Virus record (IMG/VR): IMGVR_UViG_3300005613_000204
Location: 1 to 36,376 of that record
DNA length: 36,376 nt
From: a virus
Strand: one strand, 5' to 3'
Made by a program: the position numbers and the translations under genes. The notes under the pieces were generated by a model. The model saw nothing but the letters and a program-made list of their open reading frames with translations. It searched no databases and was not told where the DNA came from. This document shows, in pieces, positions 3,909 to 36,376 of the stretch (position 1 is the first letter of the stretch; each line of letters begins with the position of its first letter).

Positions 3909-3920
3909 TGCAACATATCC

Positions 3921-4859: not shown

Positions 4860-4869
4860 TTCACCGTAG

Positions 4870-5148: not shown

Positions 5149-5176
5149 TTATCCGCTCCCACATGCTCCAAAGTCC

Positions 5177-5194
5177 AGCGCCAAGCTTGGCGCT
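5177..5194. repeat. Perfect 18-bp palindrome, copy 2
   Basis: AGCGCCAAGCTTGGCGCT, identical to the core of the palindrome at 1370-1389. Its last base overlaps the TGA (5194-5196) of the leftward gene that ends here. It is followed by no T-run. The repeated placement immediately after a gene argues for an RNA or DNA function. Confidence 0.8.
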
Positions 5195-6156: not shown

Positions 6157-6295
6157 TGACTTTCACCTCGCTCCACACTCCGTAATCGTAGTCTCCGCAT
6201 TCTTTGCATCGACGCCACGCGTCATCCGGATACTCTGGAGGATCGTCGAGAAGTGACCCGCAATCCCCACAGGCGTAGCTGCCCTTCAGATTCAT
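6149..6295 (-). CDS. 48-aa rubredoxin-like zinc ribbon protein
   Basis: 48-residue protein with two CxxC knuckles (CGDCG at about 9-13 and CKECG at about 30-34), typical of small zinc ribbons. The ATG at 6295 is chosen because it overlaps the upstream TGA as ATGA (6292-6295); the longer frame upstream to 6448 lies within the preceding gene. Probably a metal-stabilised binding module. Confidence 0.65.
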   Translation of the reverse strand: MNLKGSYACGDCGSLLDDPPEYPDDAWRRCKECGDYDYGVWSEVKVNE

Positions 6296-6486
6296 TCTGT
6301 CGCATTGCTGTCGTCTTGCCCTAGCTCTTCCTTCGGACATCTTATAAACCCCGGGCACATCTCGGTGTCCTTGAAATCGGCTATTGCTATCGGGAGCCCA
6401 CATTTGAACGATGCTCCTTTGAGTCCTTCTGTCAGTCTTCGACTGCACTCTTCATTGCAGCAGTTCGTCGCACTACAAAACGTCAT
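6292..6486 (-). CDS. Small conserved phage Cys-rich protein
   Basis: 64-aa protein of a type common in phages. It has closely spaced cysteines near the N-terminus (FCSATNCCNEECSRRLT) followed by IADF and a final Cys region. Metal binding is likely; the function is not known. The start at 6486 is chosen because its ATG overlaps the upstream TGA (ATGA, 6483-6486) and the peptide then begins MTFCSATNC, as related proteins do. Confidence 0.65.
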   Translation of the reverse strand: MTFCSATNCCNEECSRRLTEGLKGASFKCGLPIAIADFKDTEMCPGFIRCPKEELGQDDSNATE

Positions 6487-6650
6487 GTCTCTAAAGCAGA
6501 GCATTCTGTATCCCCAAGAAGATCAATTTGTAACCCGCCCTGCCTGCTCATCCATCTGGCCAGATTCCGCAGAGGCTGGCCGATGAACCTCTTTACGACT
6601 GGAGCAGAATCAGTGATGGTTTCATTTTCGGTTTTCACCCAGACTGTCAT
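6483..6650 (-). CDS. 55-aa hypothetical protein
   Basis: Small protein beginning MTVWVKTENETITDS with a basic middle (VVKRFIGQPLRNLARWM). The ATG at 6650 lies inside the end of the upstream gene (29-base overlap), and the stop overlaps the next ATG. A longer frame from 6701 exists but would overlap more. No family recognised. Confidence 0.55.
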   Translation of the reverse strand: MTVWVKTENETITDSAPVVKRFIGQPLRNLARWMSRQGGLQIDLLGDTECSALET

Positions 6651-6888
6651 TTTCAGGCTCGATACCCGATATTCCACGCAATGCTTTGATATGTTCGTCA
6701 CTTATGCCGCCTGAAGCTGCAGATTTCTCCACCAGTATTGTCATCACGGTCATGTTGTTTTGAAATGACTCAAGAGCACCCAAAGCCCCGCCTGCCTGGG
6801 CGATAAGTTCTGAATCGACGGTGTTATTGTCTCCCCGGTCGGCAGCATTGACTATTGCCATCTTCAGGTCATCAATCAAGCTTTTCAT
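6622..6888 (-). CDS. Hypothetical helical protein
   Basis: 88-aa helical, acidic protein (MKSLIDDLKMAIVNAADRGD at the start). No family recognised. The ATG at 6888 overlaps the glycosyltransferase stop by one base (TAATG), so it is coupled to the upstream gene. Cytoplasmic, as far as can be seen. Confidence 0.6.
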   Translation of the reverse strand: MKSLIDDLKMAIVNAADRGDNNTVDSELIAQAGGALGALESFQNNMTVMTILVEKSAASGGISDEHIKALRGISGIEPENDSLGENRK

Positions 6889-7820
6889 TACTTCATCCGG
6901 TAAGTGAATGGTTCAGGAGTGACTCCTGAGATAAGCTTCTCGAACAGATCGTAGAACAGCTTCGCCCGATCTTCCCATGCCCATTGCTGTATCTCAGCCT
7001 CGCCGAACCGGCGAAATGTTTGTTCTCCGGCGATGGCCCGATCAATCCCACGACTGAAGTCTTCTACGGTACGATTTACGTAAACGCAAGCGCTTTGATT
7101 GCGGAATTCCAGCATATTTCCAACACGAGTTGTGATGGGCACGCAGCCGCACGCCATTGCCTCCAACAGATAGTTGGGAGTGGCGTCAGTCTCTGAACAG
7201 CAGATGACAAATCTGGACAGGTTGTACAGTTCCAGCATCTGGTCGTCGTTCAGTACCATTTCCGGATCAGGCAAATGGGTTACAGGATCCCATTCCTTCC
7301 CTGTCTTGACCCGGAGTTCGAATTCGACGTCAGGTCTCGCCTTCTGTAGAGGCTCCAGTATGTCGTGCAGGCCCTTCCCTGCCGGACCAACCCAGATTGC
7401 TTTCATCTTACGATTGATCGGATTTCCAATAACCTCGAAGTGCTTGAGATCGACGCCATTGGAGATATTGCAGCTCTTTGGCCTCTTGCCGAAGTGCTCC
7501 CACGCTTTGTAATTGTTACAGATGACGTAGTCGCAGTGTTGCATACTGCGCTCAAACTCTGCATGCGCACGCTGATGATCCGCATTGTGGGAATTTACCA
7601 GTTTGGCTTTTGCCGACTGGTTGCGTAGCCTTTGCTTAATATGCTCGGTGAAGGAGTAGTCGATGTTGTACACAAGGTCGTAGGAAGTGAGATCCTTCGG
7701 AACTTCGTGCACGTAGGTAATATCGACTTCGAAGTTTTCCGGCGCATACTTCTTCAGTGCATGAGCCCGTTTGTCGTACGCCCATCCTCGAACATCAGCG
7801 ATTATCAGGACCTTGCGCAT
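6888..7820 (-). CDS. GT-B glycosyltransferase (family 1/4-like)
   Basis: 310-aa glycosyltransferase that would move a sugar from a nucleotide-sugar donor to an unknown acceptor. The N-terminal domain begins with a Rossmann strand (KVLIIADVRGWAYDKRA). The C-terminal domain holds the GT4-type donor site: WVGPAGKGLHDIL and, about residues 210-235, CCSETDATPNYLLEAMACGC, ending in the E-x7-E-like acidic region. The start at 7820 overlaps the upstream stop by one base (TAATG). It is paired with a GT-A enzyme directly upstream and lies four genes after a cytosine-methyltransferase-like gene. The acceptor could be DNA bases, a virion protein or host surface glycan; context does not decide. Confidence 0.85.
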   Translation of the reverse strand: MRKVLIIADVRGWAYDKRAHALKKYAPENFEVDITYVHEVPKDLTSYDLVYNIDYSFTEHIKQRLRNQSAKAKLVNSHNADHQRAHAEFERSMQHCDYVICNNYKAWEHFGKRPKSCNISNGVDLKHFEVIGNPINRKMKAIWVGPAGKGLHDILEPLQKARPDVEFELRVKTGKEWDPVTHLPDPEMVLNDDQMLELYNLSRFVICCSETDATPNYLLEAMACGCVPITTRVGNMLEFRNQSACVYVNRTVEDFSRGIDRAIAGEQTFRRFGEAEIQQWAWEDRAKLFYDLFEKLISGVTPEPFTYRMK

Positions 7821-8443
7821 TACGTCTCGCCCCACAGGCTCGTGCAGTGTGTTCCCAGATGAAACGCCTTTGCCTGTTTCAGGTATCCCACTCTTAGCTG
7901 GTAGTTCTCCCAGAGTGATCTACAGAAGTGTCCGTCGTAACCTTCTACGCGAATCTCCGGCATCTCGATGGGAAAATCCTGCTTTCTGCAGAATCGAAAT
8001 CCACCACAGGAGTAGTGCTCCATCACCAGGTCATTGTTGTAAGGAATTCTACCCGGAAGTTCTTTCAGCGGAATGATCGTGTGCGGAGAAGGCCACGCAC
8101 TCAGAATGGCAAAGTCTTTTCTCTCAGAAAGTACATTGACGCCACTCTTCACGTGCCCTGAGTTGTAGGGCAGCATGTCATTGTCTGTCAGGATAAAGAC
8201 TTCCGTTGTCGCGGTGTCGAACGCTTCTTTCCGGGCACGGACAGTGAAGTCCAGACCCGTTTCATATTCGTCGTTCTCGATCGTACGGATATTCAGTCTC
8301 AGGCCATCCGCGAGGCATGCGTCTTTCGTTGCGTCCAGCCAGTTCTTAGCAACATTATGGATCTGCCCTCGATTCAGCCATTTCGTGCCAAGCTGCTTCC
8401 CAGCCGGGAAGTAGTCCATCACAAATAGATCAACATCCTGCAT
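7820..8443 (-). CDS. GT-A glycosyltransferase (family 2-like)
   Basis: 207-aa protein with the core of a GT-A nucleotide-sugar binding fold. The metal-binding DxD motif is visible as DND (residues 87-89) in VFILTDNDMLP, after a strand of the type that precedes it in family 2 enzymes. The C-terminal part (GYDGHFCRSLWENYQLRVGY) resembles the acceptor side of these proteins. Smaller than most family 2 enzymes, so it may be minimal. The ATG at 8443 follows GGAAATAAACG. Translationally coupled to the GT-B gene, suggesting that both act in one sugar-transfer pathway. Confidence 0.75.
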   Translation of the reverse strand: MQDVDLFVMDYFPAGKQLGTKWLNRGQIHNVAKNWLDATKDACLADGLRLNIRTIENDEYETGLDFTVRARKEAFDTATTEVFILTDNDMLPYNSGHVKSGVNVLSERKDFAILSAWPSPHTIIPLKELPGRIPYNNDLVMEHYSCGGFRFCRKQDFPIEMPEIRVEGYDGHFCRSLWENYQLRVGYLKQAKAFHLGTHCTSLWGET

Positions 8444-8446
8444 CGT

Positions 8447-8683
8447 TTATTTCCGATCTCGGTTTTGCCTGATCCTGGACCGAACCAGTTCTTCAGTAAG
8501 AGGCTGACGATGGTCCACCGACCACGCTTCCTGAACCTCACTCCACCAGTCTTTAACCCCATCCCGTAACCCTAGCCACACTGCCACAGCTAGATGCAGC
8601 GGCAAGCCAATTACAATCACAAGAAGCAAAAGTACTATTCTCGGCAGGGATCGGAATGCCGGTCGAAGATTGTCGCGAGGCAT
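8447..8683 (-). CDS. Single-pass membrane protein
   Basis: 78-aa protein with one hydrophobic segment at about residues 16-36 (IVLLLLVIVIGLPLHLAVAV), a basic N-terminus and a charged C-terminal tail rich in Arg. The stop is three bases from the glycosyltransferase start, so they are co-transcribed. It might anchor the glycosyltransferases at the membrane, but nothing in the sequence shows an interaction. Confidence 0.6.
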   Translation of the reverse strand: MPRDNLRPAFRSLPRIVLLLLVIVIGLPLHLAVAVWLGLRDGVKDWWSEVQEAWSVDHRQPLTEELVRSRIRQNRDRK

Positions 8684-8752
8684 GTCAGATGGCTTTTCTT
8701 CTGTTCGCTGGGGCGATCAACCGTCACGCTCCAACATGATTGTGCACTATCG

Positions 8753-8766
8753 CACATAGCTATGTG
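8753..8766. repeat. 14-bp perfect palindrome in a 109-bp gap
   Basis: CACATAGCTATGTG lies in the gene-poor interval 8684-8792. The only frame there is a 40-codon one from an ATG at about 8757 that overlaps the next gene and looks weak. The palindrome may be an operator or a chance match. Confidence 0.35.
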
Positions 8767-8792
8767 TTCGCCGAAGAATTCAGAGTTATCTG

Positions 8793-9005
8793 CTACGCAC
8801 TTCTCGAAACTGACGATTTCGACCCTGCGACAAACAGTGACACAAACAGCATCAGCCAGAATGCCACCCAGTACCCAATCGGCTTCGTCACGGTCACGGC
8901 TGACACCACCGCGTAATTCCAAATCCACATAAAAGGCCACGCCATTAACAGGCACATCGCTACAGACAGCACAATCATGCTGCCGATGATTCCAGCAATC
9001 TTCAT
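8793..9005 (-). CDS. Two-helix membrane protein
   Basis: 70-aa protein with two hydrophobic segments (IIGSMIVLSVAMCLLMAWPF and YWVAFWLMLFVSLFVAG). The ATG at 9005 is preferred because AAAGGATTCGAGG precedes it; a GTG at 9044 gives a 13-residue extension but has no ribosome-binding site. It lacks a catalytic motif. A holin-like role is possible, given size and topology, but no endolysin is nearby. Confidence 0.6.
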   Translation of the reverse strand: MKIAGIIGSMIVLSVAMCLLMAWPFMWIWNYAVVSAVTVTKPIGYWVAFWLMLFVSLFVAGSKSSVSRSA

Positions 9006-9058
9006 AGCCTCGAATCCTTTCTGCAAAAAGTCGATCGCGCTCACATGGGCCGGAGCGT

Positions 9059-9071
9059 CCCGAAATTCGGG
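9059..9071. repeat. Short perfect hairpin after the methyltransferase gene
   Basis: CCCGAAATTCGGG is a 13-base inverted repeat directly downstream of the methyltransferase stop (9075-9077). There is no T-run on the transcribed strand. Probably an mRNA stem-loop between genes, similar in placement to the palindromes at 1370 and 5177. Confidence 0.45.
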
Positions 9072-9074
9072 CTG

Positions 9075-9701
9075 TTAGCCCCATTGAGAAGACATCTGCT
9101 GCGCAACAGACATATATGTACGGCTTCTATTCTTCGAACGCTCTGGGCCGGGCGACATTTCGTGACACTCGGCTTTGATGTACTTCTTGTCGATGTAGTG
9201 AGTACGCCTCAGTGGTGGTAGCCCCTTCAGCCACAGGCATGTAGATTTCGTGAAAGGGTCGCCGAACCAGTGAGGATGGACGCACTGGCTGTACTTTCCA
9301 ACAACACGAGTCAGCCGACTGGACGGAATTGGATTCTCAATGCAGATCTTTGGGATCGGAAGCTCCCACAACCTCTTGAAGAAGATAACAGCCTCGTAAT
9401 GATTGGCCCACCGATCTGGATACTGTGGGTGAGCACGCCTAAGGTTTTCAGGCTTGTGTGTATCATCAGGATGATAAAACCACCTGGCTCCAGCATTTGT
9501 AATGTAGGTGCATTCCGGGTGTGCAATCATCAAGTCGAAAGATTGAGGCGACTCTTTCTGCAGGAATTCGAATATGTCACCCTGGTAATGCGGTCCTGGG
9601 CTTTCCGTAGGCAGCAGATCTACCGATATGGCTTCGTGTCCACGCCTAAGGAAGGAATCACGAACGCGACCGGACGCCTCGCATGCACAAAGTACTCGCA
9701 T
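9075..9701 (-). CDS. DNA cytosine-methyltransferase-like protein
   Basis: 208-aa class I SAM-dependent methyltransferase of a phage group related to C5-cytosine methylases. The start MRVLCACEASGRVRDSF is the SAM-binding loop of this group, VDLLPTESPGPHYQGDIFEF continues the Rossmann core, and MIAHPECTYITNAGARWF carries the catalytic-type cysteine (C64; usually PPCT, here PECT). It lacks the large target-recognition domain of full restriction-type enzymes. It could methylate C5 of cytosine in DNA. The ATG at 9701 follows GAGAGTC. Its neighbours include two glycosyltransferases and a PD-(D/E)XK-like protein. The PE substitution in the motif is a small oddity. Confidence 0.75.
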   Translation of the reverse strand: MRVLCACEASGRVRDSFLRRGHEAISVDLLPTESPGPHYQGDIFEFLQKESPQSFDLMIAHPECTYITNAGARWFYHPDDTHKPENLRRAHPQYPDRWANHYEAVIFFKRLWELPIPKICIENPIPSSRLTRVVGKYSQCVHPHWFGDPFTKSTCLWLKGLPPLRRTHYIDKKYIKAECHEMSPGPERSKNRSRTYMSVAQQMSSQWG

Positions 9702-9718
9702 TAAAAGACTCTCATTTC

Positions 9719-10183
9719 TCAGTGTGTGCTGAAATACCTGCCTGTTTCGCTCGCCTGTTTAAGCAGTTCTTCAGCGCCAATCTGGAGCCGTCTTTCTGCG
9801 GCTCTCCCAGGACAGAGTATTTCAATTACCTCATCCAGATTCGCTTCTGGATCATTCATGTCAATGTACGCTAAAGGTACGCGTGCTCCAGCACATGCGA
9901 TGGCGCATCTTCCGATATTCAGCTGTTCTTTCTCTTTATCCTCAATCAGTAGCAGGACAGCAGGCTTTCGACCGAGCACGCTGGCGTAATACCACGCCTG
10001 CCCGATGGCTTCCTGCCACTTCCCTGCCCGTTCAACCTCGACCGCGTACACGTCTGTGACAATATCGCATCGAGAGCCGTAGAGGGTCCGCTCCTCAGCT
10101 CGGGCATTCATTTCCTTCGCTAAAGCTTCGGACCACTCTGGCTCTCGACTGCCCGGAGTCAGCTCACTCAACGTCTTCATCAT
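9719..10183 (-). CDS. PD-(D/E)XK nuclease-like protein
   Basis: 154-aa protein. The stretch SRCDIVTDVYAVEVERAGKW followed by QEAIGQAWYYA matches the pattern of small phage proteins with a PD-(D/E)XK-type core: an Asp on one strand (CDIVT), then E-V-E on the next (AVEVE), then a helix with conserved Gln (EAIGQ). This suggests a metal-dependent DNase or an inactive relative. The usual Lys is not obvious, so activity is uncertain. The start at 10183 (a second ATG follows immediately) overlaps the end of recA by 20 bases. Confidence 0.6.
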   Translation of the reverse strand: MMKTLSELTPGSREPEWSEALAKEMNARAEERTLYGSRCDIVTDVYAVEVERAGKWQEAIGQAWYYASVLGRKPAVLLLIEDKEKEQLNIGRCAIACAGARVPLAYIDMNDPEANLDEVIEILCPGRAAERRLQIGAEELLKQASETGRYFSTH

Positions 10184-12458
10184 GATTCTTTGCGTAAGAG
10201 ATATTGCACGCCTTCAAGACTCGACTCTGAATTTCAGTACGCAGATCATTGTCATTCTCGATTGTCTCACGAGTCTTAGGTTTTCCCTGACCGATATTGA
10301 CTCCCTCGAATGAATACCACGCACCGCTCCTCTTGAGGATCTTCTTATCTACGGCGATATCAATCATTTCATTGAGAGGATTGATGCCGCCTTCGGGTAT
10401 CAGATCAAATTCAGCACGGCGAAATGGCGGCGCAATCTTGTTCTTCACCACCTTTGCCCGGACACGAATCCCTGCCGCTTCATCACCATCCTTGAGGGTG
10501 GATATCTTTGCCAGTTCGACCCGGCACGATGAGAAGAACTTCAGTGCTCGTCCTCCCGGGGTGGTATTGGGCGACCCAAACATCACCCCAACCTTCTCTC
10601 GAATCTGATTAATGAACACTACAGTTGCCTTGGTATTGGAGACAGCGCCAGCCAGCTTCCGCATGGCTTGGCCCATCATGCGAGCCTGAAGACCGACATG
10701 AGAATCACCGATCTCGCCATGCAACTCGGCTTTCGGAGTCAGGGCGGCCACTGAGTCAACGACGATGAGATCTGTACCGCCTCCTGCAACGAGCTGATCA
10801 ACAATCTGCAGCCCTTCTTCACCATATGTGGGCTGCGACAGATACAGTTCGTCCAGATTAACACCTAGCTTCTGTGCCCATTCGGGATCAAGAGCATGCT
10901 CTGCATCGACAAATGCGACATTTCCACCCAGATTCTGTACCCCTGCAATCATATGCAGACATAGAGTCGTGTTGTGCGTCACGAAGCCGTTCGCAATGAA
11001 AGAGTGAGTTGCCGACATTTCAAAGTCGAACGTCGGCACCTCGCCGCCATCGCCAATATCTTCGATCCTGTCGAAGAAGAAGTTCTCGTGTTCGAGCGAC
11101 TCCAGATGTCGCGTCAGATGGTTATTCGGCAGGCCTTTCAGTGAAAGAATCTTACCGAGGCGATCGTATGTCAGCTTGGCTTTCGGGTTGTCGCCGATAA
11201 CATCTTTGAACAGGGTGTGCTCGCTCTGATACGTTTCCATGGCGTCATACAGATCCTGAAGGACAAGTCCCATGTGAGGTATGGAGTCAAAGTTCGTCGA
11301 GCCAGAAGATTCAGACAGCTGCTGCAGGGCCGAATCTCTACAGGAAGACTGAGTTCCGATCAGGTCGCGATACCGCAATGCCTCACACCCGCCAATCTCA
11401 ATGGTCCAGTAGTCGTTATCTGGGTATTTACTGACGGTCTTCTTTCGCAGGATCGACACAATGCCAAACTGCAAAAGCATCAGCCTGACTTCCTTCAGCA
11501 GTCGTTTACTGGCAGATGTTACAGTTATTGTACCGCGAGGCACATTCACGTGACATTCACAGTCAAAGTATCCTTGTAGAAAGCTTTGGGCGCACCTCCT
11601 GTCGCCAGTCAGTACTGCAGTTGGCACATACTTGTCTTTTGCATTTCCCACAGACAATCCATGGTCGTCATAGAACGCCTGCACAGAATCTTTGCATGGC
11701 CAGTGGAAGTTGATACTTCCCGCGTCATTATTGGGGTACTTATTCGCATCCTTTGCCAGAGCCCGGTTAACCTCTGGCACGCAGATCCCAATTACATCCT
11801 TATCGTCATTCGTGAACTGAATCCTACTGCCTTCAAATCTTCCATCGGCCACCAATGCTCCAAGAGCGTAGGCAGTCTCGAAGGGCAATGAGTTTGCACC
11901 GAAGGGACATCCTCTGCGAGAAACGAGGTAGTCTCCGAGTATCAAATCGCCAGTTTTTCTCCAAACGAGATTTCCCCTCTCGCTCATAACCAAGTGTGGG
12001 TGATTGATAGTGGACGATATCTCCGATCCCGACTGTGTCGTGATGCGGCATACCCGCCTGCGTCCATTGTGAGTAAATGTCTTTGTTGACTCCAGTTGCC
12101 CGTGTCGATTCACGAGCCGGCACTTCTTCGGAGTGTTACGGGAAACACACACTGCATCCAGGCCATTGCGATCGAACACATCAGATATCGTCTCAATGCC
12201 ATTTTCCGTAAAGAGATACGTGTCGGCAGGAAGGCATTTCCCGCTCGATTCTCCGCCGAATAGCTCAATAAGACGACCACGGGGGATTCCCTTCCCGCCC
12301 AAGGCAATGTCCAGAGCAAGCGATCCTGAGTGAAAACCCTCAACATTGAGAGAGGTTTTTTCATTCAGCTTCATAATCGACGATTTGCCGAAACTCTTTT
12401 GGATGCCTGCAATTGTGTTCTGGAACGCTTCATCTTTGGAATGGTCGCGACTGCTCAT
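10164..12458 (-). CDS. recA: RecA recombinase precursor with intein
   Basis: 764-aa precursor. Residues 1-74 and 497-764 form a 342-aa RecA, close to the usual length. RecA coats single-stranded DNA and drives homologous pairing and strand exchange with ATP. The Walker A motif GESSGK/TT is split by the intein between K74 and the +1 Thr, so no active RecA can exist before splicing. Walker B (DLIVVDSVAAL), loop L1 (EIGDSHVGLQARMM) and loop L2 (QIREKVGVMFGSPNTTPGG) are intact. The ATG at 12458 follows AGAAGG. The gene heads the leftward operon, so recA would be among its first products. Confidence 0.97.
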   Translation of the reverse strand: MSSRDHSKDEAFQNTIAGIQKSFGKSSIMKLNEKTSLNVEGFHSGSLALDIALGGKGIPRGRLIELFGGESSGKCLPADTYLFTENGIETISDVFDRNGLDAVCVSRNTPKKCRLVNRHGQLESTKTFTHNGRRRVCRITTQSGSEISSTINHPHLVMSERGNLVWRKTGDLILGDYLVSRRGCPFGANSLPFETAYALGALVADGRFEGSRIQFTNDDKDVIGICVPEVNRALAKDANKYPNNDAGSINFHWPCKDSVQAFYDDHGLSVGNAKDKYVPTAVLTGDRRCAQSFLQGYFDCECHVNVPRGTITVTSASKRLLKEVRLMLLQFGIVSILRKKTVSKYPDNDYWTIEIGGCEALRYRDLIGTQSSCRDSALQQLSESSGSTNFDSIPHMGLVLQDLYDAMETYQSEHTLFKDVIGDNPKAKLTYDRLGKILSLKGLPNNHLTRHLESLEHENFFFDRIEDIGDGGEVPTFDFEMSATHSFIANGFVTHNTTLCLHMIAGVQNLGGNVAFVDAEHALDPEWAQKLGVNLDELYLSQPTYGEEGLQIVDQLVAGGGTDLIVVDSVAALTPKAELHGEIGDSHVGLQARMMGQAMRKLAGAVSNTKATVVFINQIREKVGVMFGSPNTTPGGRALKFFSSCRVELAKISTLKDGDEAAGIRVRAKVVKNKIAPPFRRAEFDLIPEGGINPLNEMIDIAVDKKILKRSGAWYSFEGVNIGQGKPKTRETIENDNDLRTEIQSRVLKACNISYAKNHDEDVE
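10971..12236 (-). mobile_element. LAGLIDADG intein in the RecA P-loop
   Basis: 422-aa intein (precursor residues 75-496). It starts with the nucleophile Cys in CLPADTYLFTENGIETISD (block A), has TINHPH (block B, T150 and H153), and ends FVTHN with the His-Asn pair before Thr +1 (block G), so all splicing residues are present. Between them are two LAGLIDADG-type dodecapeptides, ALGALVADG (about 199-207) and FLQGYFDCEC (about 293-302), with the acidic catalytic positions kept. The homing endonuclease is therefore probably active. Insertion in the most conserved ATP-binding motif is typical of inteins, since this site resists deletion. Confidence 0.95.
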
Positions 12459-15250: not shown

Positions 15251-15507
15251 GCGTCCTTGACCTCGATTGATTTGAGCCACTGTTGTGCGATAACTGCCGG
15301 TGGCCCTTCCATTCCGGCAATCAGGTTGATCACGTCTCTGTCGCTGCACGCATTCCCGAGGCCGTCCAGTTTGACATACGTCTGCTTGGGAGCCATTCCT
15401 TCTGCAGACACCTTCGTCAGGCAGATCATATCGCTGACGATTCGAATCTTAACTGGCAGGCGAGGCCCGCCTTTGATTGTCAGCAGCCCATCGTAATCAC
15501 CCTGCAT
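15247..15507 (-). CDS. Hypothetical protein
   Basis: 86-aa protein (MQGDYDGLLTIKGGPRLPVK at the start), mixed alpha/beta, no family. The ATG at 15507 is chosen because GGAG lies seven bases upstream; it overlaps the preceding gene by 11 bases. Confidence 0.55.
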   Translation of the reverse strand: MQGDYDGLLTIKGGPRLPVKIRIVSDMICLTKVSAEGMAPKQTYVKLDGLGNACSDRDVINLIAGMEGPPAVIAQQWLKSIEVKDA

Positions 15508-16219
15508 TCTTGTGCTCCAGTGCAAGTTTGGCCAAATCTGCTGCTTTTTCTGGATTATCGATAATCATCTTTAGTGCTCCAGTCAAAACAGACTCTGTCT
15601 GCAGCATGCTCTGTACTGTCAGATGCGCCGCACGCAACTGATTATCACTGACAAGGATGACGCCGCCCAATTCCGCTCTAATTGAATTGACGTCGACCTT
15701 TCCATCAATCTTCCTGCAGGTAACTGAGCATCCAAATGGATGTTCCCCATATCCTGTATCAACTCTCCAGTTCAGAGAATCTCCTGCATCCAGATCAAGG
15801 TGAGCCAGATGCTTTACCAGAGGAAGCTCTTGACTATCTCCAGATAGCTCCCCTGCGTGCCATCCGGCCTCACCCGAATCGGCGATGCCTCCCCGGCCCA
15901 TCTGTCGAGGGCCTCCAGTCGTTGCAGGCGGCACAGCAGCCACAGGCATCGCAGTAGTGGTTGTCGGACTTGACGTGGTAGGCGCACTATCCAATTCGGA
16001 ACCGCAGCGAAGCACCACCGGCTGTGGCGGCAAGGTCGAACGCGTCCGCTTCTTCAAATCATCGATAAGGATTTTCTTCTTTTCTTCCGTGAGAGGATAT
16101 ACGAAACCGCCTACGTGTTTGTCCAGATCGTCTCTGTCCTTTTTCCCTTTGTCTTCGCCGACGAGCTGCTGGCTGTCGTCTCCTTGGAATAGCTTTTGAA
16201 GCCATGTTGTGATGCCCAT
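15497..16219 (-). CDS. Hypothetical protein with Thr/Pro linker
   Basis: 240-aa protein. A charged N-terminal part (residues 1-70) is joined by a Ser/Thr/Pro/Ala linker (TTSSPTTTTAMPVAAVPPAT) to a C-terminal domain of about 110 residues ending in helices. No family recognised. Its first 109 bases overlap the Dam gene in another frame; both translations look genuine there. Ribosome-binding site weak, so translation may be coupled to Dam. Confidence 0.5.
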   Translation of the reverse strand: MGITTWLQKLFQGDDSQQLVGEDKGKKDRDDLDKHVGGFVYPLTEEKKKILIDDLKKRTRSTLPPQPVVLRCGSELDSAPTTSSPTTTTAMPVAAVPPATTGGPRQMGRGGIADSGEAGWHAGELSGDSQELPLVKHLAHLDLDAGDSLNWRVDTGYGEHPFGCSVTCRKIDGKVDVNSIRAELGGVILVSDNQLRAAHLTVQSMLQTESVLTGALKMIIDNPEKAADLAKLALEHKNAG

Positions 16220-18403: not shown

Positions 18404-18886
18404 GTGGATTTCTTCAGATCTCTCGTCCGCAGGCCATTTGCCTTTGTATGCCGATTGTTCGTTGCTGCACAAGCCGCAGAGCACCAGAAGCTCAAAGAGA
18501 GCATCAGAAAGCTAAGGGCAGAAATCCGCCAGAAGAACCAGCGGGAAAAGGCCGACGAAGCCCATATCCAGCAACTGGTAAATGAAGCACGGGGCCAGTC
18601 AAACACAATTGACAGCCTGCATGAGTGTATCCTCGAACTGGAGGGAGAGAAAGACGCTCTTGAAGTAGAAGTGGAAAAACTGGAGAATACAAAGGTTATC
18701 AATGAGCTTGATATTACCGCTCTTACGGAGAAGGTGCAGAAGCACATTGAAATCAATCGGATGGAACGCATTTCGGCTCAGCTAGAGTCAAACTTCCTCG
18801 CCCAGCAGGGAAAACAGCATGGCATTGACCAGCCTGAGCAACATCGTAGAGAACGTCCGGCGCCAACCTCAGTGGAGGCCCGTTGA
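18404..18886 (+). CDS. Coiled-coil protein upstream of portal
   Basis: 160-aa protein. After a hydrophobic/basic N-terminus (residues 1-24) comes a long coiled coil (about 27-125), with heptads such as LRAEIRQKNQREKADEAHIQ. The GTG start at 18404 follows AGGACAATTCC. The last 68 bases overlap the portal gene. First gene of the rightward structural module; a structural or scaffold-like role is possible. Confidence 0.6.
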   Translation: MDFFRSLVRRPFAFVCRLFVAAQAAEHQKLKESIRKLRAEIRQKNQREKADEAHIQQLVNEARGQSNTIDSLHECILELEGEKDALEVEVEKLENTKVINELDITALTEKVQKHIEINRMERISAQLESNFLAQQGKQHGIDQPEQHRRERPAPTSVEAR

Positions 18887-21302
18887 TTACACAATCTCTC
18901 GACCTGGGCAGAATGTTGTTGACCTGCCTGCTACTGAGCAATTTCCCTACATGGCTACATCCTTTCGGGATGGTCCAGCTTCGTGGGTTGACAATCGAGA
19001 CCGATACGTTGAGCAGTACACTGGCTCAGCTTACATCGCTATCGGTGCGATCGCCCGTATGGCAGCCATGCAGAAGGCGAAAGTCCTGCGACGCACAGAG
19101 AAGAAATCGGGAATCCGTTTCGAGGAAGTCAGTCCAACGCATCCCCTGGTCGAACTGTTCGAAGAGGTAAACCCGATTGACACGCCGTGGGACCTCTGGT
19201 TCTACACTATCGGGTGGTCTCTCATTGCGGGCAACTCGTATCTCTACAAAGCCAAGAACGGATTTGGCACTCCGAAACAGCTCTGGCCGATGCCCCCTCA
19301 ATGGGTGAAGGTCATCCCGGATCCTGTCAACTTTATTGCCGGATACGAGATCAACTCCAACTACGGTTCTGCTTTTCATGTTCCAAAGAGCTACATGATT
19401 GACATTAAGCAGCCTGCTCTGGACTGGTCCGATAACGGTCGATACTACGGCCAGCCGTCTATCAAGGCTGCATCGACCACACTGGACCTGGAAAACGAGA
19501 TGCTGAAGCGTCTCTACTACCAGTTCAAGAACTTTGCACCTCCCGGCATGGTTTTCGAGACAGACCAGAGGCTCCAGCAGAATCAGGTCCAGCAGATCTG
19601 GGCTCAGATGGCAGCACAGCACAGCATGTCTGCCCAGACTGGCCGGCCCATGGTTCTGCACAGTGGGATGAAACTGTCTGGATCGTGGAACTCCAACTCA
19701 GATCGAGAACTGTCTTACACAGACAGTCTGGATAAGACACTGGAGATGACGTTCGCTACTCTCGGCGTACCAAAGAATGTGGTGGGCCTTTCTCAGGATC
19801 AGAATCGCTGTCTGGACGAGCAGACAGAGTGCCTGACTGCGTCAGGGTGGGTTCGATACGACCAGCTGACTGAGTCAACTGAGATTGCGTGTTTTGATCC
19901 CGATTCTGGTAGCCTTCATTATGACGTCCCGAGCGACATCAATATCCAGGACTACGACGGCCCCATGGAGCGGTGGCGAAACGCCGACTCTGCTGACATT
20001 CTGATGACGCCGAATCACCGTGTTTTGGGTCGGTCGGGCGACGGACACCGACACGGTCCACTGCAGTGCAAACACGCGTCAGAGTGGTCGAAAGGCGGGC
20101 GTATGCAGATCCTGGGGGCACCTCCGAATGGTGCTGCTTGTACTGTCCCATCGCCGGTGGCCATTCCTCCCGCCGTTCACTCTAAAAGAGGGGCATACCG
20201 AGACGACGCCACTGTTCGGCCAGAGGATTTTCTTGAGTTTACCGGATGGTTTGTATCTGAAGGTCACACTTCGGCCCGGAAGTACATGCAGAGACATAAG
20301 AACGGCAGGGCATACCCATCGGTTCAGTATTCCACGGTTCTCTCGCAGAAGAAGCCTCAGTACGTTGCTGAAATCGACAAATTGCTTGATCGCATGCCTT
20401 TCAAATGGCATCGACAGGTTGTCGCTGGAGTAGTGAGATGGACCTGCAGCGACAAGGGACTGCATGATTACCTAGTGTCCAACTGCGGAAAACTGGCTGC
20501 CAACAAAAAGGCCCCCAGCTTCATTAAGTCTTGGCCTGCCAGTAGCCTGAAGGTATTCCTCACATCGGCCCTGAAGGGAGATGGGAACTTCCAAGAGTCA
20601 CAGAACTCCTGGCGAGCCTCATATACGACTATCAGTCCGCAGCTCGCAGACGATATTCAGGAAATTGCCATTAAGTGCGGCTACCGGTCCCGAATAGGCA
20701 GCCCCACTCGCCTGACCAAGAACGGATGCGCTGTCTTTACAGTCAGCGTGCTTCCGAGAACTCCGTATGCGTCAATTTCCAGGAAGAGTCGCTCCATCGA
20801 GCATTATCAGGGTAAGGTTTGGTGCGTCACTGTTCCGACGTCATATTTTGTTGTTCGACGAAACGGCTGCGTTCACATCACCGGCAACAGCAACGCAGAG
20901 GCGTCCCTTCTGACCTTCGCAAAGATGACGGTCGATCCGCTTCTGGAGCAGCTTTCTCAGCATCTGACGCAGGATCTGGCTCGTGATTTTGAGCCAGACA
21001 GGTCTCTTATTATCCAGATCGGCCCATGTGAAGTCGATAAGGGTGAAGCTCTGCGACAGGCCATCGAGACAATGGTGCGGGCTGGCGCCATTACTCCGAA
21101 CGAAGTTCGCCATATGATGCTGGAGTTGCCACCTCTCGAAAGCGAGCACGGTGACAACCCGATTATGGTGTCCGGCTTCCAGCAGACTGGTCCTGAAGGG
21201 GATCAAGAATCATCTGACTCAGGGAACCCAAAGGGTCAGGTGGTGGAGGTGGATCGTTCGACGCGGTCCGGACAGAATCAATTTGACACGGCGGAGGATT
21301 GA
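18819..21302 (+). CDS. HK97-type portal protein precursor with intein
   Basis: 827-aa precursor. Residues 1-330 and 691-827 make a 467-aa portal, a normal size. The portal forms the dodecameric ring through which DNA enters the head. Typical features: AYIAIGAIARMAAM, a Trp-rich segment WFYTIGWSLIAGNSYLYKAK, and the crown-proximal NR/SNAEASLLTF, where the intein sits. The C-terminal tail is acidic and low complexity. The ATG at 18819 follows AGGGAAAACAGC. The 3' end overlaps the antisense gene at 21163-21861 by 140 bases. Confidence 0.93.
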   Translation: MALTSLSNIVENVRRQPQWRPVDYTISRPGQNVVDLPATEQFPYMATSFRDGPASWVDNRDRYVEQYTGSAYIAIGAIARMAAMQKAKVLRRTEKKSGIRFEEVSPTHPLVELFEEVNPIDTPWDLWFYTIGWSLIAGNSYLYKAKNGFGTPKQLWPMPPQWVKVIPDPVNFIAGYEINSNYGSAFHVPKSYMIDIKQPALDWSDNGRYYGQPSIKAASTTLDLENEMLKRLYYQFKNFAPPGMVFETDQRLQQNQVQQIWAQMAAQHSMSAQTGRPMVLHSGMKLSGSWNSNSDRELSYTDSLDKTLEMTFATLGVPKNVVGLSQDQNRCLDEQTECLTASGWVRYDQLTESTEIACFDPDSGSLHYDVPSDINIQDYDGPMERWRNADSADILMTPNHRVLGRSGDGHRHGPLQCKHASEWSKGGRMQILGAPPNGAACTVPSPVAIPPAVHSKRGAYRDDATVRPEDFLEFTGWFVSEGHTSARKYMQRHKNGRAYPSVQYSTVLSQKKPQYVAEIDKLLDRMPFKWHRQVVAGVVRWTCSDKGLHDYLVSNCGKLAANKKAPSFIKSWPASSLKVFLTSALKGDGNFQESQNSWRASYTTISPQLADDIQEIAIKCGYRSRIGSPTRLTKNGCAVFTVSVLPRTPYASISRKSRSIEHYQGKVWCVTVPTSYFVVRRNGCVHITGNSNAEASLLTFAKMTVDPLLEQLSQHLTQDLARDFEPDRSLIIQIGPCEVDKGEALRQAIETMVRAGAITPNEVRHMMLELPPLESEHGDNPIMVSGFQQTGPEGDQESSDSGNPKGQVVEVDRSTRSGQNQFDTAED
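19809..20888 (+). mobile_element. LAGLIDADG intein in the portal gene
   Basis: 360-aa intein (precursor residues 331-690). It begins with Cys in CLDEQTECLTASGWVRYDQL (block A), has TPNH (about 397-400, block B), and ends VVRRNGCVHITGN before Ser +1 (block G). The penultimate residue is Gly rather than the common His, a variation known among phage inteins. Two LAGLIDADG-like motifs, FTGWFVSEG (474-482) and FLTSALKGDGN (580-590), mark a homing endonuclease. All essential splice residues other than the penultimate His are present. Confidence 0.95.
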
Positions 21303-30596: not shown

Positions 30597-33221
30597 ATGG
30601 CACGCACAATCTCGACCGGCGTTATTGATGTCCAGTTGATTGGCCTTCCAGATGTGAAGCGTCAATTGGATGACATTCCGCGCTTGATGGATGGTGTTGC
30701 CAATGCCACGCAGAACTTCGATCGCAAAATGAATCGGGCTATGCGATCTGCAACCCGTGCCATGCGAGAACATCGGCAGGAAGCAACTCGATTCGCATTG
30801 ACCACGACACCAATGGGAGGTGAGGCTCCGTCCATCTTCCATATGCAGGCGAAAGCCAAGGCGTCGAGATTAGCCAGTGAGGCCCGCGATCGTGCCAGCG
30901 CTGAGAGATCAGGCCAGTTTAATCTCAGTGCGGTAGCTGGGCTGGGCCAATTCCGGGAAGCCACTCTGGGCACAAAGGCTCTTGCGGCACTAGAGGGCGA
31001 ACAGAGAGCGCTGGGAGAGCTGGCTAACAAGCTGGACCTGACCGACAGGGCGAACCGTAAGTTCATTGCAAGCGAAATGGAGCGGATTCGCGTTTCGCGA
31101 CAAGCCATTGAACTGGAACAGCAGAGAGTTATGGATCCTGCTGCGTTTGCTGCCGGACGACGCCAGGAGACAGCACGTCAGGATGTAGCCGCTGGTCTTT
31201 CTGGATTCGAAGAAGCGACCACTCATGGCGAGGCGCTCAAGGCAATCGACGATCGCCGGAAGGCTGTTGACGAGCTTGAGGTATCCACAAAGAAGTTGGG
31301 GTCTACTAACAGGGTCCAGAGAGAGATCCAGCAGGCCTACATTGACAAAACCAGGTCCGAGCTGGACACAGAAGAAAAACTCCTCAAGAGGAAAGCAGCA
31401 ACTGGGACAGTCCTCAATTCAGCCAGAGTTCTTCGGCAAAGACTAAACGAAACAGTTGCCAAAGGTGGCAAAGAAGCAGAACATGCTGCCAGAAGACTAA
31501 GTAAACTGAATCGCCATATACGTGACTTGGAGAAGGCTGATAGACATGCAAGTCGCGCGCTTTCAGGATTCAATAAGAATCTACACAACTTTGGCAGGGC
31601 CAGCCGCATGTCCAACTTCGCCATGCAGCAGTTATCGTTTGGTGCTCAGGACTTCGTGCAGGTCTACGGACAGACTGGCGTTGCCGGCGCACTGCATGCC
31701 TCTGCCAACAACCTGTCCGCGTTCGTGCAAACGCTTAATGTGGGAAACCCAATGATCCTGGCACTTACATCGTTTGGTGTTACTGCTGGAATGATTGGCA
31801 TTAGCGAGTGGTTCAAATCCACGGAAAAGAACGCACAGAAAACCAACAAGGCCCTGGAGCGGTTCATTAAGCTTCGCGAGAGAATGTTTAGGCTGGAGGA
31901 TAAGGCACGAGAACTGACGCCTGAAACAGCCGGGGGGCAGATTGCGTCTGCAGAACGAGCGGCTGCGCGTGAGCGAGAGAAATTTCAGATTGAGTCTTCT
32001 TCTGTCATGGAAAAACTGTCACAGCAGCTCGCCGGACAGAAAGGCTCCGAAGCGATTCTGACCAAGGGCCGAATAGCGTCTGTGAGTGGCGACTTTGACA
32101 CACTCAAGGCACTTGCTCGCGAGTATGGTAGGGAGGTTATGAAGGAACTGCAGGAGACACGTGCCGGACAACGCATGACTTCTGCACAGCTTATGTCTGC
32201 TGGTGAGTTTGAGATGCAGCAGTTCTTTAACAAGGCGACCATTGGTCAAGCTCTGACTCAGGCATTCGGGAGGCCCGATGATGCTCAGGAGAAGAGCCTG
32301 AGAGACCAGCGAGATGCGGTCCAGAAAGCAGAAGCGGAACTGAAACGACTGAATGAGGCTGCCAAGAGCCTTTCAATTACCTTCCGAAAGACGGCTGCCC
32401 AGGACTTCGCTAAGGCTATCAGTGACCTTCCGAAGTCGGCTGATGGGCGACGATTAGGGGTCGGTGCAGCTGTTGGCAAAGTCAAGTTTGACCCTACTCG
32501 ACAGGGAGAGACAGCTGAGCAAGCTCGTGAGCGTATCCGGACATCTTTTCGTGAGATTACAGACGGACTGGACGATATTGGCTCGGCAACTGACAAAAAT
32601 ATCGACCAGGTCTACAGCGAGTACCTCAAGACTCTTGAAAAGATCAATTCCGGGGAAAGCCAGCACCAGAAGACTATTCAGCGACTCTTGAAGACGTTCG
32701 AACAGGCAGATCCTCTGGCTGATCAGCTTATGCGTATTGATCAGGCTCTGTCTGAGTTGATGAAAACAACAGGCGACCCCACCATCTTTGCCAGAGCTGC
32801 TCAGGCCCGAGCCAGAATCACGCGTGAACATGCAGTGAAGGAAGCACGCGAGCAGCGCACGGGAATCGAATCGGTTATCAATTCTTTGTCTGCCTCTCTG
32901 CCTGACGCAACGAAGAAGCAGATGAGCGAGATGTTCTCTCACGCACAGCGAATGAGACAGATTGAAGGCCTTGACGTGCCGGGCCCAATGCGAGCCAGGC
33001 TCCAGGGTCTGTCCGTTGCGCAGATGCAGGAAAATATCAAAAGTGCTGGAGAGAAAAAAATTGGGTTTGCAGACGCTAAGAGCCTGCATAAACAGATCCA
33101 ATCTTCCCTGAAGAACAACAAGCAGACAAAGTTGGATGAAGACAGAAATATCATCCTGAACGATCTACTGAATCTATGGAAAGAGCGGTCGAAGGAAGAA
33201 GGCTTCACTATCGTCGATTAG
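30597..33221 (+). CDS. Tape measure protein
   Basis: 874-aa largely alpha-helical protein that sets tail length and exits ahead of DNA. Long coiled-coil stretches (about 100-330 and 430-850), an ATRAMREHRQEATRF-type basic region early, and one hydrophobic segment at about 380-400 (PMILALTSFGVTAGMIGISE), which fits the membrane-active part of such proteins. At about 1.5 angstrom per residue this predicts a tail of roughly 130 nm. The longest complete ORF in the rightward module. Confidence 0.85.
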   Translation: MARTISTGVIDVQLIGLPDVKRQLDDIPRLMDGVANATQNFDRKMNRAMRSATRAMREHRQEATRFALTTTPMGGEAPSIFHMQAKAKASRLASEARDRASAERSGQFNLSAVAGLGQFREATLGTKALAALEGEQRALGELANKLDLTDRANRKFIASEMERIRVSRQAIELEQQRVMDPAAFAAGRRQETARQDVAAGLSGFEEATTHGEALKAIDDRRKAVDELEVSTKKLGSTNRVQREIQQAYIDKTRSELDTEEKLLKRKAATGTVLNSARVLRQRLNETVAKGGKEAEHAARRLSKLNRHIRDLEKADRHASRALSGFNKNLHNFGRASRMSNFAMQQLSFGAQDFVQVYGQTGVAGALHASANNLSAFVQTLNVGNPMILALTSFGVTAGMIGISEWFKSTEKNAQKTNKALERFIKLRERMFRLEDKARELTPETAGGQIASAERAAAREREKFQIESSSVMEKLSQQLAGQKGSEAILTKGRIASVSGDFDTLKALAREYGREVMKELQETRAGQRMTSAQLMSAGEFEMQQFFNKATIGQALTQAFGRPDDAQEKSLRDQRDAVQKAEAELKRLNEAAKSLSITFRKTAAQDFAKAISDLPKSADGRRLGVGAAVGKVKFDPTRQGETAEQARERIRTSFREITDGLDDIGSATDKNIDQVYSEYLKTLEKINSGESQHQKTIQRLLKTFEQADPLADQLMRIDQALSELMKTTGDPTIFARAAQARARITREHAVKEAREQRTGIESVINSLSASLPDATKKQMSEMFSHAQRMRQIEGLDVPGPMRARLQGLSVAQMQENIKSAGEKKIGFADAKSLHKQIQSSLKNNKQTKLDEDRNIILNDLLNLWKERSKEEGFTIVD

Positions 33222-33236
33222 TAATAAGGTCTACTC

Positions 33237-34244
33237 ATGCCTGTTTCACGTGACATCGAAACTAATATCTCAGGTCAGGTTACTGCCACTACGGCCAATG
33301 TCCGTATTCAGGAAACCATTGACTGGGGAGATGTCCCAGCACGCCTGTCTGAGATCTTCGGGCCGACCACAAGCTCTGGGGTTGTGGCAACTGAGCTGGA
33401 TCCACTCTTCGGCTTGTGGAGGGCCCAGTCTGTAGACTTCAAACCGAAGTCGAAGAAGATGACCGACACGGTTGCCGGTGCGTCTGCCGGTGACCCGACA
33501 ATGCCTCTGTTTGAGTATGCTGATCTCACGATTACATACTCCACTCTTGAGCAAGAGTCTCCTACGTCCCAGTCTGATGCCGATCAGGATGGAGAGGGTG
33601 ATCCTGTTCCGTTCCTTACTCACAACTGGTCCATTGGTGGTGACTTCATCACAATGGATGATACGGAGATGTTCTGGAGTCAGGGAGGGTCTGCAAAAGG
33701 CACTGGCATTGCGGCCAATAAGATCATCCCGTCGATCGAGCATTCCATTAACTGGAAGCGGGTACTGAATCCTCCGTTTGCTCAGATTCGCAATTGCATG
33801 GGGAAGATCAACAGCAAGAAGATGACCTTCTCCACGGGCATCATCTGGCCGGAAACTCTTCTGTTCAACGGTGCAGAGATGTCTCGCGATATCATGTCTG
33901 ACGGGACCCGTGCATGGGATGTAACATACCGCTTCAGTGAGCGGAGAATTGATTGCACCCTAAATGACTATGTCATTACACCGGACACTGGATCTGGCGT
34001 AACAGTCAGTAGCTACGACGGGGCTGGCCCAAACGGCATAGACACTACATCCCTGGACTCTGGCATCATTGCAAAGCTTGGAGGAAGATATGGAGGGTGG
34101 AATCACTTCTACAAGAAGGACAGTCCGCCCGGCATGTTTCGCCTTCACCAAAGCCGACCTGCCAACAACGTGCACCTCTACCATGAAGACAAGGCAATCT
34201 ACAAGAAGTACGACCTCCTGAAACTGTTTGAGCAGGACTCATAA
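33237..34244 (+). CDS. Tail-tip / distal tail-like protein
   Basis: 335-aa beta-rich protein with repeated Asp/Thr/Ser segments (ATTANVRIQETIDWGDVPAR at the N-terminus). The position just after the tape measure fits a distal tail or baseplate hub protein. No family-specific motif that I can name. Its TAA overlaps the next ATG by one base (TAATG). Confidence 0.5.
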   Translation: MPVSRDIETNISGQVTATTANVRIQETIDWGDVPARLSEIFGPTTSSGVVATELDPLFGLWRAQSVDFKPKSKKMTDTVAGASAGDPTMPLFEYADLTITYSTLEQESPTSQSDADQDGEGDPVPFLTHNWSIGGDFITMDDTEMFWSQGGSAKGTGIAANKIIPSIEHSINWKRVLNPPFAQIRNCMGKINSKKMTFSTGIIWPETLLFNGAEMSRDIMSDGTRAWDVTYRFSERRIDCTLNDYVITPDTGSGVTVSSYDGAGPNGIDTTSLDSGIIAKLGGRYGGWNHFYKKDSPPGMFRLHQSRPANNVHLYHEDKAIYKKYDLLKLFEQDS

Positions 34245-36376
34245 TGCCCGGACCACGGGACCTCAGGAAATTCGTCCCGGGACAGCCTTTGCAGGACTAC
34301 CTGTCTGCAAGCCATCTCAATGCTGTTCTGGAGGCAATGTCTCATCTGAATGCACGCAATTCAGACTGGTCTGCCGGTGTAGACTCGGCAATTGGACATC
34401 TCAAAGCGGCGGCGCCGGAGATTCTCGACCGAGATATTATCATCTACCGGAACACTTCGGTCCTGCCATCATTTTCCGGAGGCAGCCATGCTTACGACAA
34501 GCCTGTTGACTACCTGAAATTCGAACTGGTGCCTCTCGGCCCGCCTGAGATGGACCCGTTTGACGAAACAGACGGGGAGAAAATTACCTCTGGACACATT
34601 GTGTATTCTGCATTCGGAGAGCAGCAGGCCGAACCAGAGAACGTCATTGGATATGCCATTGCGCTGCACGACACACCATCGTGCACGATTGGGCTGGGAT
34701 TGATCGCTGGCAATGGGACCTTCCTGATGGACCAGGGAGCCAACAGCGCTCTTGACGCGTTCGATGAGGTCAGGCAGCAGCCAGTTAATGAGTACGACGC
34801 CAGCTTTGCATCATTTGACTTCGATAATTCCTTCGATGCCAGATTGAAGCACAAGACGTTTGCTACGGAAATCCTCGACTCTCCTGCAGGAGAAACGGCA
34901 GGTCCATGTTCAGGAAACTGTACCTACGTTTGCGGAACTGACCCTCAATCTCCTGGCGCAGGTCTCCGATGGGTCCCCTCTATGGGAGATTGTGGGCCCA
35001 ACTGCTATTGCCAGCCACTCGGATCATGTTCATCTGCAAACGAAACCACATCGCAACCGTGTGTTGCCAGCGACTATTTTCAAAGGAATCCTGGTGTAGC
35101 TCACATGGAGTCTGCGGAGATCAGCCAATTCGTATTTGACGGACTGTCTCACTGCAGTAATCAGTACACTGGAGAATGGGAGTGGATCTACATCGGAGAA
35201 CAGTGCACAAAATCAGGATGCACAGTCAATGTGAATTATCTTCCAGACTGCACTGAAGATCTTTGCGGTAAATTCCGAAAGATCTGGTGCTCTTGTCCGG
35301 AGACAACCACCCCTCCCCCGACCACATCAACCACATCTACCACGACAACATCATCAACTACCACTACTCAGTGTCCGGTAGATCCCAACTCTGGACGCTG
35401 CGGGTGTGCGTCGTATGAGTGTGTGGCAGATGCGACTGGCGGCACATCCTGGAAACGGTCAGGCAACATCGGCACTTCAGGGTCATATGGATGTTGCTGC
35501 AAAGACAGCTATCCTGGGCCATGTACAGCAGGTGACACCCAGACTCTTTCGTGTTACGACATGAACTCGGGAGGATGTGGAGGATCGACCTGCGAATATG
35601 CATTCAATAGAGGCTGTAGAAGAACGAGCATCTACGCACCTCCTGTCAATGAGAACGCATGGCCGACTCAGCCGTGCGGGATGGTCCCGGTAAACACCTG
35701 CTGTAACGGCCAGTGCTCGGGCGGCGGCAACGTCTATACGGCAAATCGTGTCCGCCCACTGTCGGGATGCCTGGGCCCTTATTACTCCTCTACGGGATGT
35801 GGCAGCTCGACGGACCTGGGCGCTCCTGTTCCCGATTACGAAACCAAATCATGCTACGGAATCTATGAGCAGCTTTATGGCCAGAGAGATGATGGGTGCA
35901 CCAATCCATGCGGCGCAGGTGCAGACATTTTTATGCCCAGTGCACTGTCAGGAGGGGCATTCGGACAGAGCATGAAATTTTCTTCCGGATGGCCCTGGTC
36001 TCAGTGCATTTACTACTGGAAGGATGGAGGATGGCAACTCAAGCCTATGCTCTGGCGACCTCTCGGAGAGCGTGTGTGGAGATTCGGAGACCTATGCGGC
36101 GACCATATTGAGGGTGCCAGCTGCAAGCCTCCTCCGGATCCAGACCATCCTCCGGCTAACGGGACTATCAATTGGGGAATCTGCTGTCGACCTACCACAT
36201 CGACAACTCCTCCGCCAACCACCACGACCACTACAACTACAACCACTACCAGCACGACTCCTCCGCCTCCGACCACAACATCGACAACCACTACCAGTAC
36301 CACTACTACCACCAGTACCACGGTTCCCCCGTCAACCACCACAACAACAACTGAGCCTCCTGACACAACATCGACA
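34244..36376 (+). CDS. Large Cys-rich tail protein with Thr/Pro linkers (partial)
   Basis: Open frame of 711 codons from ATG 34244 to the window end, with no stop, so the 3' end is missing. Residues 1-210 are a tail-type domain with few Cys (PGPRDLRKFVPGQPLQDYL at the start). About 218-353 form a Cys-rich domain (CSGNCTYVC, CGPNCYCQ). Residues 354-375 are a Thr/Ser/Pro linker (TTTPPPTTSTTSTTTTSS). About 376-650 form a second Cys-rich region (GRCGCASYEC, YGCCCKDSY, NTCCNGQC). From 651 to the end is another linker made of T, S and P. Many Cys imply disulfides or metal sites in a protein exposed outside the cell. Probably a receptor-binding or tail-fibre protein. Confidence 0.8.
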   Translation, partial: MPGPRDLRKFVPGQPLQDYLSASHLNAVLEAMSHLNARNSDWSAGVDSAIGHLKAAAPEILDRDIIIYRNTSVLPSFSGGSHAYDKPVDYLKFELVPLGPPEMDPFDETDGEKITSGHIVYSAFGEQQAEPENVIGYAIALHDTPSCTIGLGLIAGNGTFLMDQGANSALDAFDEVRQQPVNEYDASFASFDFDNSFDARLKHKTFATEILDSPAGETAGPCSGNCTYVCGTDPQSPGAGLRWVPSMGDCGPNCYCQPLGSCSSANETTSQPCVASDYFQRNPGVAHMESAEISQFVFDGLSHCSNQYTGEWEWIYIGEQCTKSGCTVNVNYLPDCTEDLCGKFRKIWCSCPETTTPPPTTSTTSTTTTSSTTTTQCPVDPNSGRCGCASYECVADATGGTSWKRSGNIGTSGSYGCCCKDSYPGPCTAGDTQTLSCYDMNSGGCGGSTCEYAFNRGCRRTSIYAPPVNENAWPTQPCGMVPVNTCCNGQCSGGGNVYTANRVRPLSGCLGPYYSSTGCGSSTDLGAPVPDYETKSCYGIYEQLYGQRDDGCTNPCGAGADIFMPSALSGGAFGQSMKFSSGWPWSQCIYYWKDGGWQLKPMLWRPLGERVWRFGDLCGDHIEGASCKPPPDPDHPPANGTINWGICCRPTTSTTPPPTTTTTTTTTTTSTTPPPPTTTSTTTTSTTTTTSTTVPPSTTTTTTEPPDTTST

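Follow-up and report, generated by a model that had tools for sequence, protein, structure and literature searches.

A mucin-like modular tail protein in a phage probably infecting a planctomycete, and the GalNAc-transferase-like enzyme linked to its relatives

Mucin-type O-glycosylation, in which D-x-H transferases add the first sugar, is considered a trait of eukaryotes. Fungal cellulases carry CBM1 modules, which are small, Cys-rich and cellulose-binding, on Thr/Ser/Pro linkers that are glycosylated. In Toxoplasma, the Thr-rich mucin-like domain of CST1 is glycosylated by GalNAc-T2 and GalNAc-T3, leading to rigidity of the cyst wall (PMC5225312). Among phages, the mycobacteriophages Che8, Corndog and Myrna are described in PMC12363180 and PMC12619734, following Freeman et al. 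2023, as glycosylating their own capsid and tail tube. We found no paper in the open-access literature on a system that combines a Thr/Pro-tract tail protein with a glycosyltransferase (GT). Here, a viral tail locus is compared with these systems. It lies in an IMG/VR record that was analysed over its entire 36,376 bases (the window), and its features are as follows.

30597..33221, plus strand: tape measure protein (PHROG 9228, E 4e-6)
33237..34244, plus strand: 335-aa conserved tail gene, directly upstream of the gene below, its stop overlapping the next start
34244..36376, plus strand: putative mucin-like modular tail protein gene, assigned from ORF, composition and synteny; 5' 711 codons, open at the contig end
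34244..34771, plus strand: N-terminal domain (residues 1-176), common to planctomycete prophage tail proteins; probable virion anchor
34907..35062, plus strand: Cys/Trp module 1 (residues 222-273); 30.6 bits, alignment A6, model pLDDT 88
35063..35296, plus strand: rest of Cys region 1 (residues 274-351); possible degenerate second module, 8 bits only
35303..35368, plus strand: Thr/Pro/Ser linker 1 (residues 354-375), from composition
35372..36187, plus strand: diverged modules of Cys region 2 (residues 377-648), with 26 Cys in total
36191..36376, plus strand: Thr/Pro linker 2 (residues 650-711 and beyond); the contig stops here

The ORF at 34244..36376 runs for 711 codons without a stop, starting within the stop codon of the upstream gene (TAATG). 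Its product contains 42 Cys, 41 of them within residues 222-648, with CCC at residues 417-419 and CC at 486-487 and 647-648. Cys makes up 5.9% of this product compared with 1.7% across the other window genes; a few small genes match it in Cys content, and none of these adds long tracts. The first Thr/Pro/Ser tract is 22 aa long (residues 354-375), and the second spans 62 aa up to the contig end (residues 650-711). A recount confirmed the preliminary description of this DNA, which had listed more than 711 residues, two Cys-dense regions, CCC and CC runs and T/S/P linkers of 22 and over 60 residues. Searches of Pfam, PHROGs and NCBIfam with the protein gave no family match, and no relatives were returned by peptide-pattern scans of viral contigs or by tblastn against GenBank phages with the window protein or the upstream gene as query. 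A second, shorter Thr/Ser/Pro tract (PTTSSPTTTT) is present in an unrelated 240-aa protein encoded at 15497-16219 on the minus strand.

The contig ends within a low-complexity linker, which is a typical place for an assembly to break, and the Thr/Pro and Cys-rich architecture might thus be a product of drifting composition or of faulty assembly of low-complexity DNA. We give this explanation scarcely any chance. All four Thr codons are mixed in the tracts (ACC 21, ACA 15, ACT 12, ACG 4), so that the tracts look kept at the protein level as opposed to arising by microsatellite slippage.

The N-terminal domain provides a link to known genomes. When compared by hhalign, window residues 1-176 matched an alignment of relatives (A5, from loci L147, L166, L148, L116 and L257) with P 1.1e-6, and a 67-sequence profile with P 7.4e-8 (prob 94.5%). 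With HMMER, the domain scored best of the 53 window genes and of 1,000 shuffles, and the protein has the PG..-N..-(I)V.N domain by which the family is defined. The family was found in 38/392 Planctomycetota, 0/296 Bacteroidota and 1/297 Acidobacteriota genomes. This strong concentration suggests that a planctomycete is the likely host of the window phage, as judged from its relatives, and bears out the planctomycete flavour remarked on earlier. Eight copies of the domain are present in a single Planctomycetota genome (G358, loci L296 and L317), which suggests several prophages or tail-derived elements there.

A profile was also built from the genes directly preceding members of the N-terminal family. 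The 33237..34244 gene came top of the 53 window genes against this profile, with a weak match (E 0.0065) that covers MGKIN..LLFNGA..AWDVTYRF. The order of tape measure, ~270-335 aa gene and N-terminal-family gene is therefore seen in the window, with a weak match for the middle gene, and the genomic setting, with portal, major capsid protein and tape measure, is that of an HK97-type siphovirus. Both the N-terminal homology and the tail gene order speak for the modular tail protein proposed in the preliminary description, and the gene order would place the product in the virion. Elsewhere in the window, the portal protein (18819-21302, plus strand) is split by an intein-like insertion, with intein-containing families matching between two portal stretches. 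The RecA gene (10164-12458, minus strand) contains an in-frame intein; N- and C-terminal splicing models match, and from residue 496 the product again matches RecA. At the left contig end (51-195), a ~45-bp repeat with the palindrome TTGAGACTGAGTCTCAA is present three times, and is possibly an origin, an operator or an end-related site.

The Cys regions were analysed with a profile built from 56 independent modules. Under the default bias correction of HMMER this profile gave no matches, because Cys-rich composition is penalised; the search was rerun without the correction and judged against shuffles. Residues 222-273 scored 30.6 bits, while the best of 4,000 composition-preserving shuffles reached 19.7, a result that also argues against an artefact. 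All invariant Cys and Trp residues of the module family are retained in this segment (alignment A6), which is the only part of the protein with the family pattern C-x3-C-x-[WY]-x-[WC] ... W ... C-x(0-4)-C-x-C ... P ... C. By sequence comparison, this segment is thus a true member of the recurrent family of C/W modules of ~50 residues. Residues 274-351 did not rise above shuffles (8 bits), and neither did any part of Cys region 2, which is too diverged for assignment. Module score and architecture agree with the earlier proposal of small Cys modules on flexible Thr/Pro linkers. Structure prediction of the Cys regions, also proposed in the preliminary description, was run on module 1; this yielded a confident model of a small beta domain (pLDDT 88), and a fold search of the PDB gave nothing below E 3.

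The modules are assumed here to be disulfide-bonded. As the tail protein is made in the reducing cytoplasm, disulfides would have to form after lysis. The cytoplasmic synthesis, together with the lack of a PDB fold match for the module, would fit an alternative in which the modules bind a metal such as zinc and the protein is a structural spacer, as opposed to a receptor-binding protein. However, the invariant Trp, the Thr/Pro linkers and the variation in repeat number from phage to phage resemble secreted adhesive modules, and the gene sits in the tail-tip slot. We allow the metal-binding alternative only a small chance.

Relatives were collected with two patterns applied to DNA, one with C.CP ahead of a Thr run and the other with C.G.C.W.[WYF] behind such a run. 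In the proteins of the 43 loci obtained, Cys/Trp modules of ~50 residues take turns with Thr/Pro linkers. When 84,980 species genomes were scanned, the pattern occurred twice in Gemmata sp. IIL30 and in one Planctomycetota MAG; five other genome matches lacked a module ORF and were discarded as chance. The architecture had been thought unusual for a phage, a view not supported by the dozens of related phage contigs that have it. An origin by drift or misassembly is already largely refuted, as dozens of independent contigs show the same layout and so do named Planctomycetota genomes. In the relatives, the tape measure is followed by a ~270-290 aa gene and then by the Cys/Thr protein; a glycosyltransferase comes last, often after another protein of the Cys/Thr type. 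This cassette was seen both in viral contigs and in one planctomycete genome (L257), where it is complete and lies entirely on the minus strand.

8653-10947, minus strand: L257 tape measure
7846-8649, minus strand: L257 268 aa gene
6724-7842, minus strand: L257 N-terminal domain protein with Thr tracts
6094-6720, minus strand: L257 Cys/Thr protein
3877-5667, minus strand: L257 GT

A profile of the linked GT matched in 30/31 module loci whose downstream DNA extends for 1 kb or more, and in 1/126 other loci; about 26 of the module-linked GTs are distinct. The association was also tested in reverse, by scanning viral contigs with the GT alone and with no selection on tracts, and at least 551 of the 600 stretches retrieved were relatives. 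The gene directly upstream of the GT had a Thr/Ser/Pro tract in 18/47 distinct loci, versus 8/584 for the remaining genes of these loci (Fisher p 1.6e-16, which is only indicative as the loci are not phylogenetically independent). Tract neighbours are spread over the whole GT tree (50/69 tips). Many of the phages in the GT-only set have no Cys module, for example L190, where a protein of 43% Thr is encoded upstream of the GT. One large GT clade lies beside terminase-like genes and has no tract neighbours. At L178, L199-L201, L222 and L239, members of a GT clade directly follow a conserved gene of 506 aa similar to the C-terminus of a terminase, and no Thr tract is found in the vicinity. Within the N-terminal family, the GT was found in 3/3 loci picked for Thr tracts and in 0/28 loci without them, some of which have Ser/Gly-rich linkers (L257 was left out of this comparison, having been reached through its GT).

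These data bear on a second alternative, in which the protein is a modular tail adhesin with unglycosylated linkers while the GT modifies host surface glycans or phage DNA, in serotype conversion or superinfection exclusion, the operon being shared only because both concern the host surface. Phage GTs that modify DNA and host O-antigen are known, as cited for background in PMC12619734, tail and serotype-conversion genes can be neighbours, and some members of the GT family adjoin genes without tracts, such as those of terminase type. However, the GT tracks the Thr/Pro tracts and not the tail locus, as the tractless loci of the N-terminal family demonstrate, Ser/Gly-linker ones included, and it adjoins Thr/Ser/Pro-tract genes even in phages that lack the Cys module. 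We therefore consider a GT acting on the host or on DNA unlikely, with a modest chance of being correct.

In the window itself, a profile search detected no member of the linked GT family, and the ORF ends before the expected place. The GT of the window phage is a prediction: the contig stops while still in the preceding gene, within the second linker, and the enzyme would be expected just beyond position 36376. The preliminary description had instead pointed to two glycosyltransferases of the window as potentially relevant. These are two overlapping genes (6888-8443, minus strand). One encodes a glycosyltransferase of group 1 (GT-B), the other a 207-aa protein that has a DND motif and matched no family. 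They lie in a divergent operon and belong to families different from, and unrelated to, the GT that accompanies such tail proteins; on these grounds they were rejected as linker-modifying partners. They may provide a second layer of glycan extension.

The linked GTs belong to Pfam family Glycos_transf_2. Across 25 of them, the D-x-H motif (D88, H90), the E-E of GGEE (E183/E184) and a late His (H208) are invariant, the last of which we take to be the third metal ligand. An AlphaFold2 model (pLDDT 88.8) was compared with 350,542 PDB chains using Foldseek, and the best 50 matches were all polypeptide GalNAc-transferases (E about 1e-13 to 1e-10). That the nearest folds are enzymes acting on polypeptides further argues against host glycans or DNA as the target. 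The sequence match is weak, with GALNT4 at E 0.0024 (nearly full length) and GALNT7 at 0.019. For the N-terminal half, bacterial GT2 enzymes score better than GalNAc-transferases, while for the C-terminal half GALNT7 is the only plausible PDB match. In this half, EPFEIPAQGLGLFAVRREAW..FRGFGGEE..GGK..P..H of the phage GT corresponds to EPYRSPAMAGGLFAIEREFF..QIWGGEN..GGK..P..H of GALNT7, such that the WGGEN and GH motifs align with the invariant E183/E184 and H208. As modelled, the GT-A catalytic fold is closest to GT27; the predicted resemblance to GalNAc-transferases is one of anatomy, and we do not claim membership of GT27. Pfam detected no ricin-B lectin domain in the linked GTs, which end at ~280 aa or have other extensions. 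In some long ones, a methyltransferase-like part or another GT-like domain was recognised by eye (L129:2087-4730, L139 and L125), a hint that the glycan decoration may go further than a single sugar. Two GTs of the family gave no match at E 1e-5 when compared by tblastn with 50,697 GenBank phages, so that no close relation to Che8 gp110 or Corndog gp38 exists at this threshold. BFVD contains one member of the family, a protein from an uncultured phage.

Our preferred reading, which we hold to be fairly probable, is that the window encodes a tail-tip adhesin of a siphovirus, probably of a planctomycete, with Cys modules and with Thr/Pro stalks that are O-glycosylated by a downstream phage GT. 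The N-terminal domain would fix the protein to the tail tip, the Cys/Trp modules would contact and bind the host surface, and the Thr/Pro tracts would form mucin-like stalks. As a GT lies downstream of nearly all relatives and its closest structures are mucin-initiating enzymes, we infer that these phages O-glycosylate their own tail linkers. The linker glycosylation suggested in the preliminary description thus gains support through the GT linked in relatives, if not through the enzymes it named. The Thr tracts would be modified in the host cytoplasm before assembly, and glycosylation would render the linkers stiff, extended and protease-resistant, and possibly mask the virion.

The gene pair of mucin-like tail protein and GalNAc-transferase-like enzyme recurs in hundreds of contigs. 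More tentatively, at somewhat short of an even chance, planctomycete phages and many uncultured aquatic phages possess a prokaryotic counterpart of mucin-type O-glycosylation, composed of Thr/Ser/Pro-tract tail proteins and a dedicated D-x-H GT27-like transferase, which could have arisen independently of eukaryotes or even be related to the ancestor of the eukaryotic enzymes. If true, this would represent a new way to build tail adhesins that are both long and stiff. It would also supply glycoengineering with simple single-domain protein O-glycosyltransferases and allow the origin of the GT27-like catalytic signature to be tested directly. The cassette can also serve as a marker for the phages of planctomycetes, of which only a few have been cultured.

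The combination of a small Cys/aromatic module and a Thr/Pro linker is shared with the CBM1 layout of fungal cellulases by analogy only, as the module matches CBM1 neither in sequence (Pfam) nor in fold (PDB). Planctomycete prophage tail proteins (e.g. G104:C35 and L257) have the N-terminal domain, the upstream gene and the tape measure in the same order as the window, and L257 has Thr tracts and a GT in addition. In contrast, most prophage members of the N-terminal family have other C-terminal payloads, either Ser/Gly linkers or unrelated domains, and no GT. In L291, L292 and L294, Ser/Gly-rich linkers (SSSGSSSG) replace Thr/Pro and the linked GT is absent. The mycobacteriophages share phage-encoded glycosyltransferases that act on the phage's own structural proteins; their targets, in the accounts cited above, are capsid and tail-tube C-termini, and those accounts, in the parts consulted, describe no Thr/Pro mucin-like linkers or Cys modules. 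In relation to the polypeptide GalNAc-transferases (CAZy GT27), a comparison that rests on the GTs of relatives as the enzyme itself is not on the window contig, the phage GTs differ in having no detected lectin domain, ~12-18% identity, a prokaryotic virus as their source and a cytoplasmic setting. They resemble GT27 in their predicted fold, the D-x-H metal motif, the GGE(N/E) motif and the late His. The likeness extends to the presumed substrate, a Thr-rich tract being encoded next to the phage GT as it is the target in CST1, which, like the phage tail proteins, has a Cys-rich domain too (PMC5225312).
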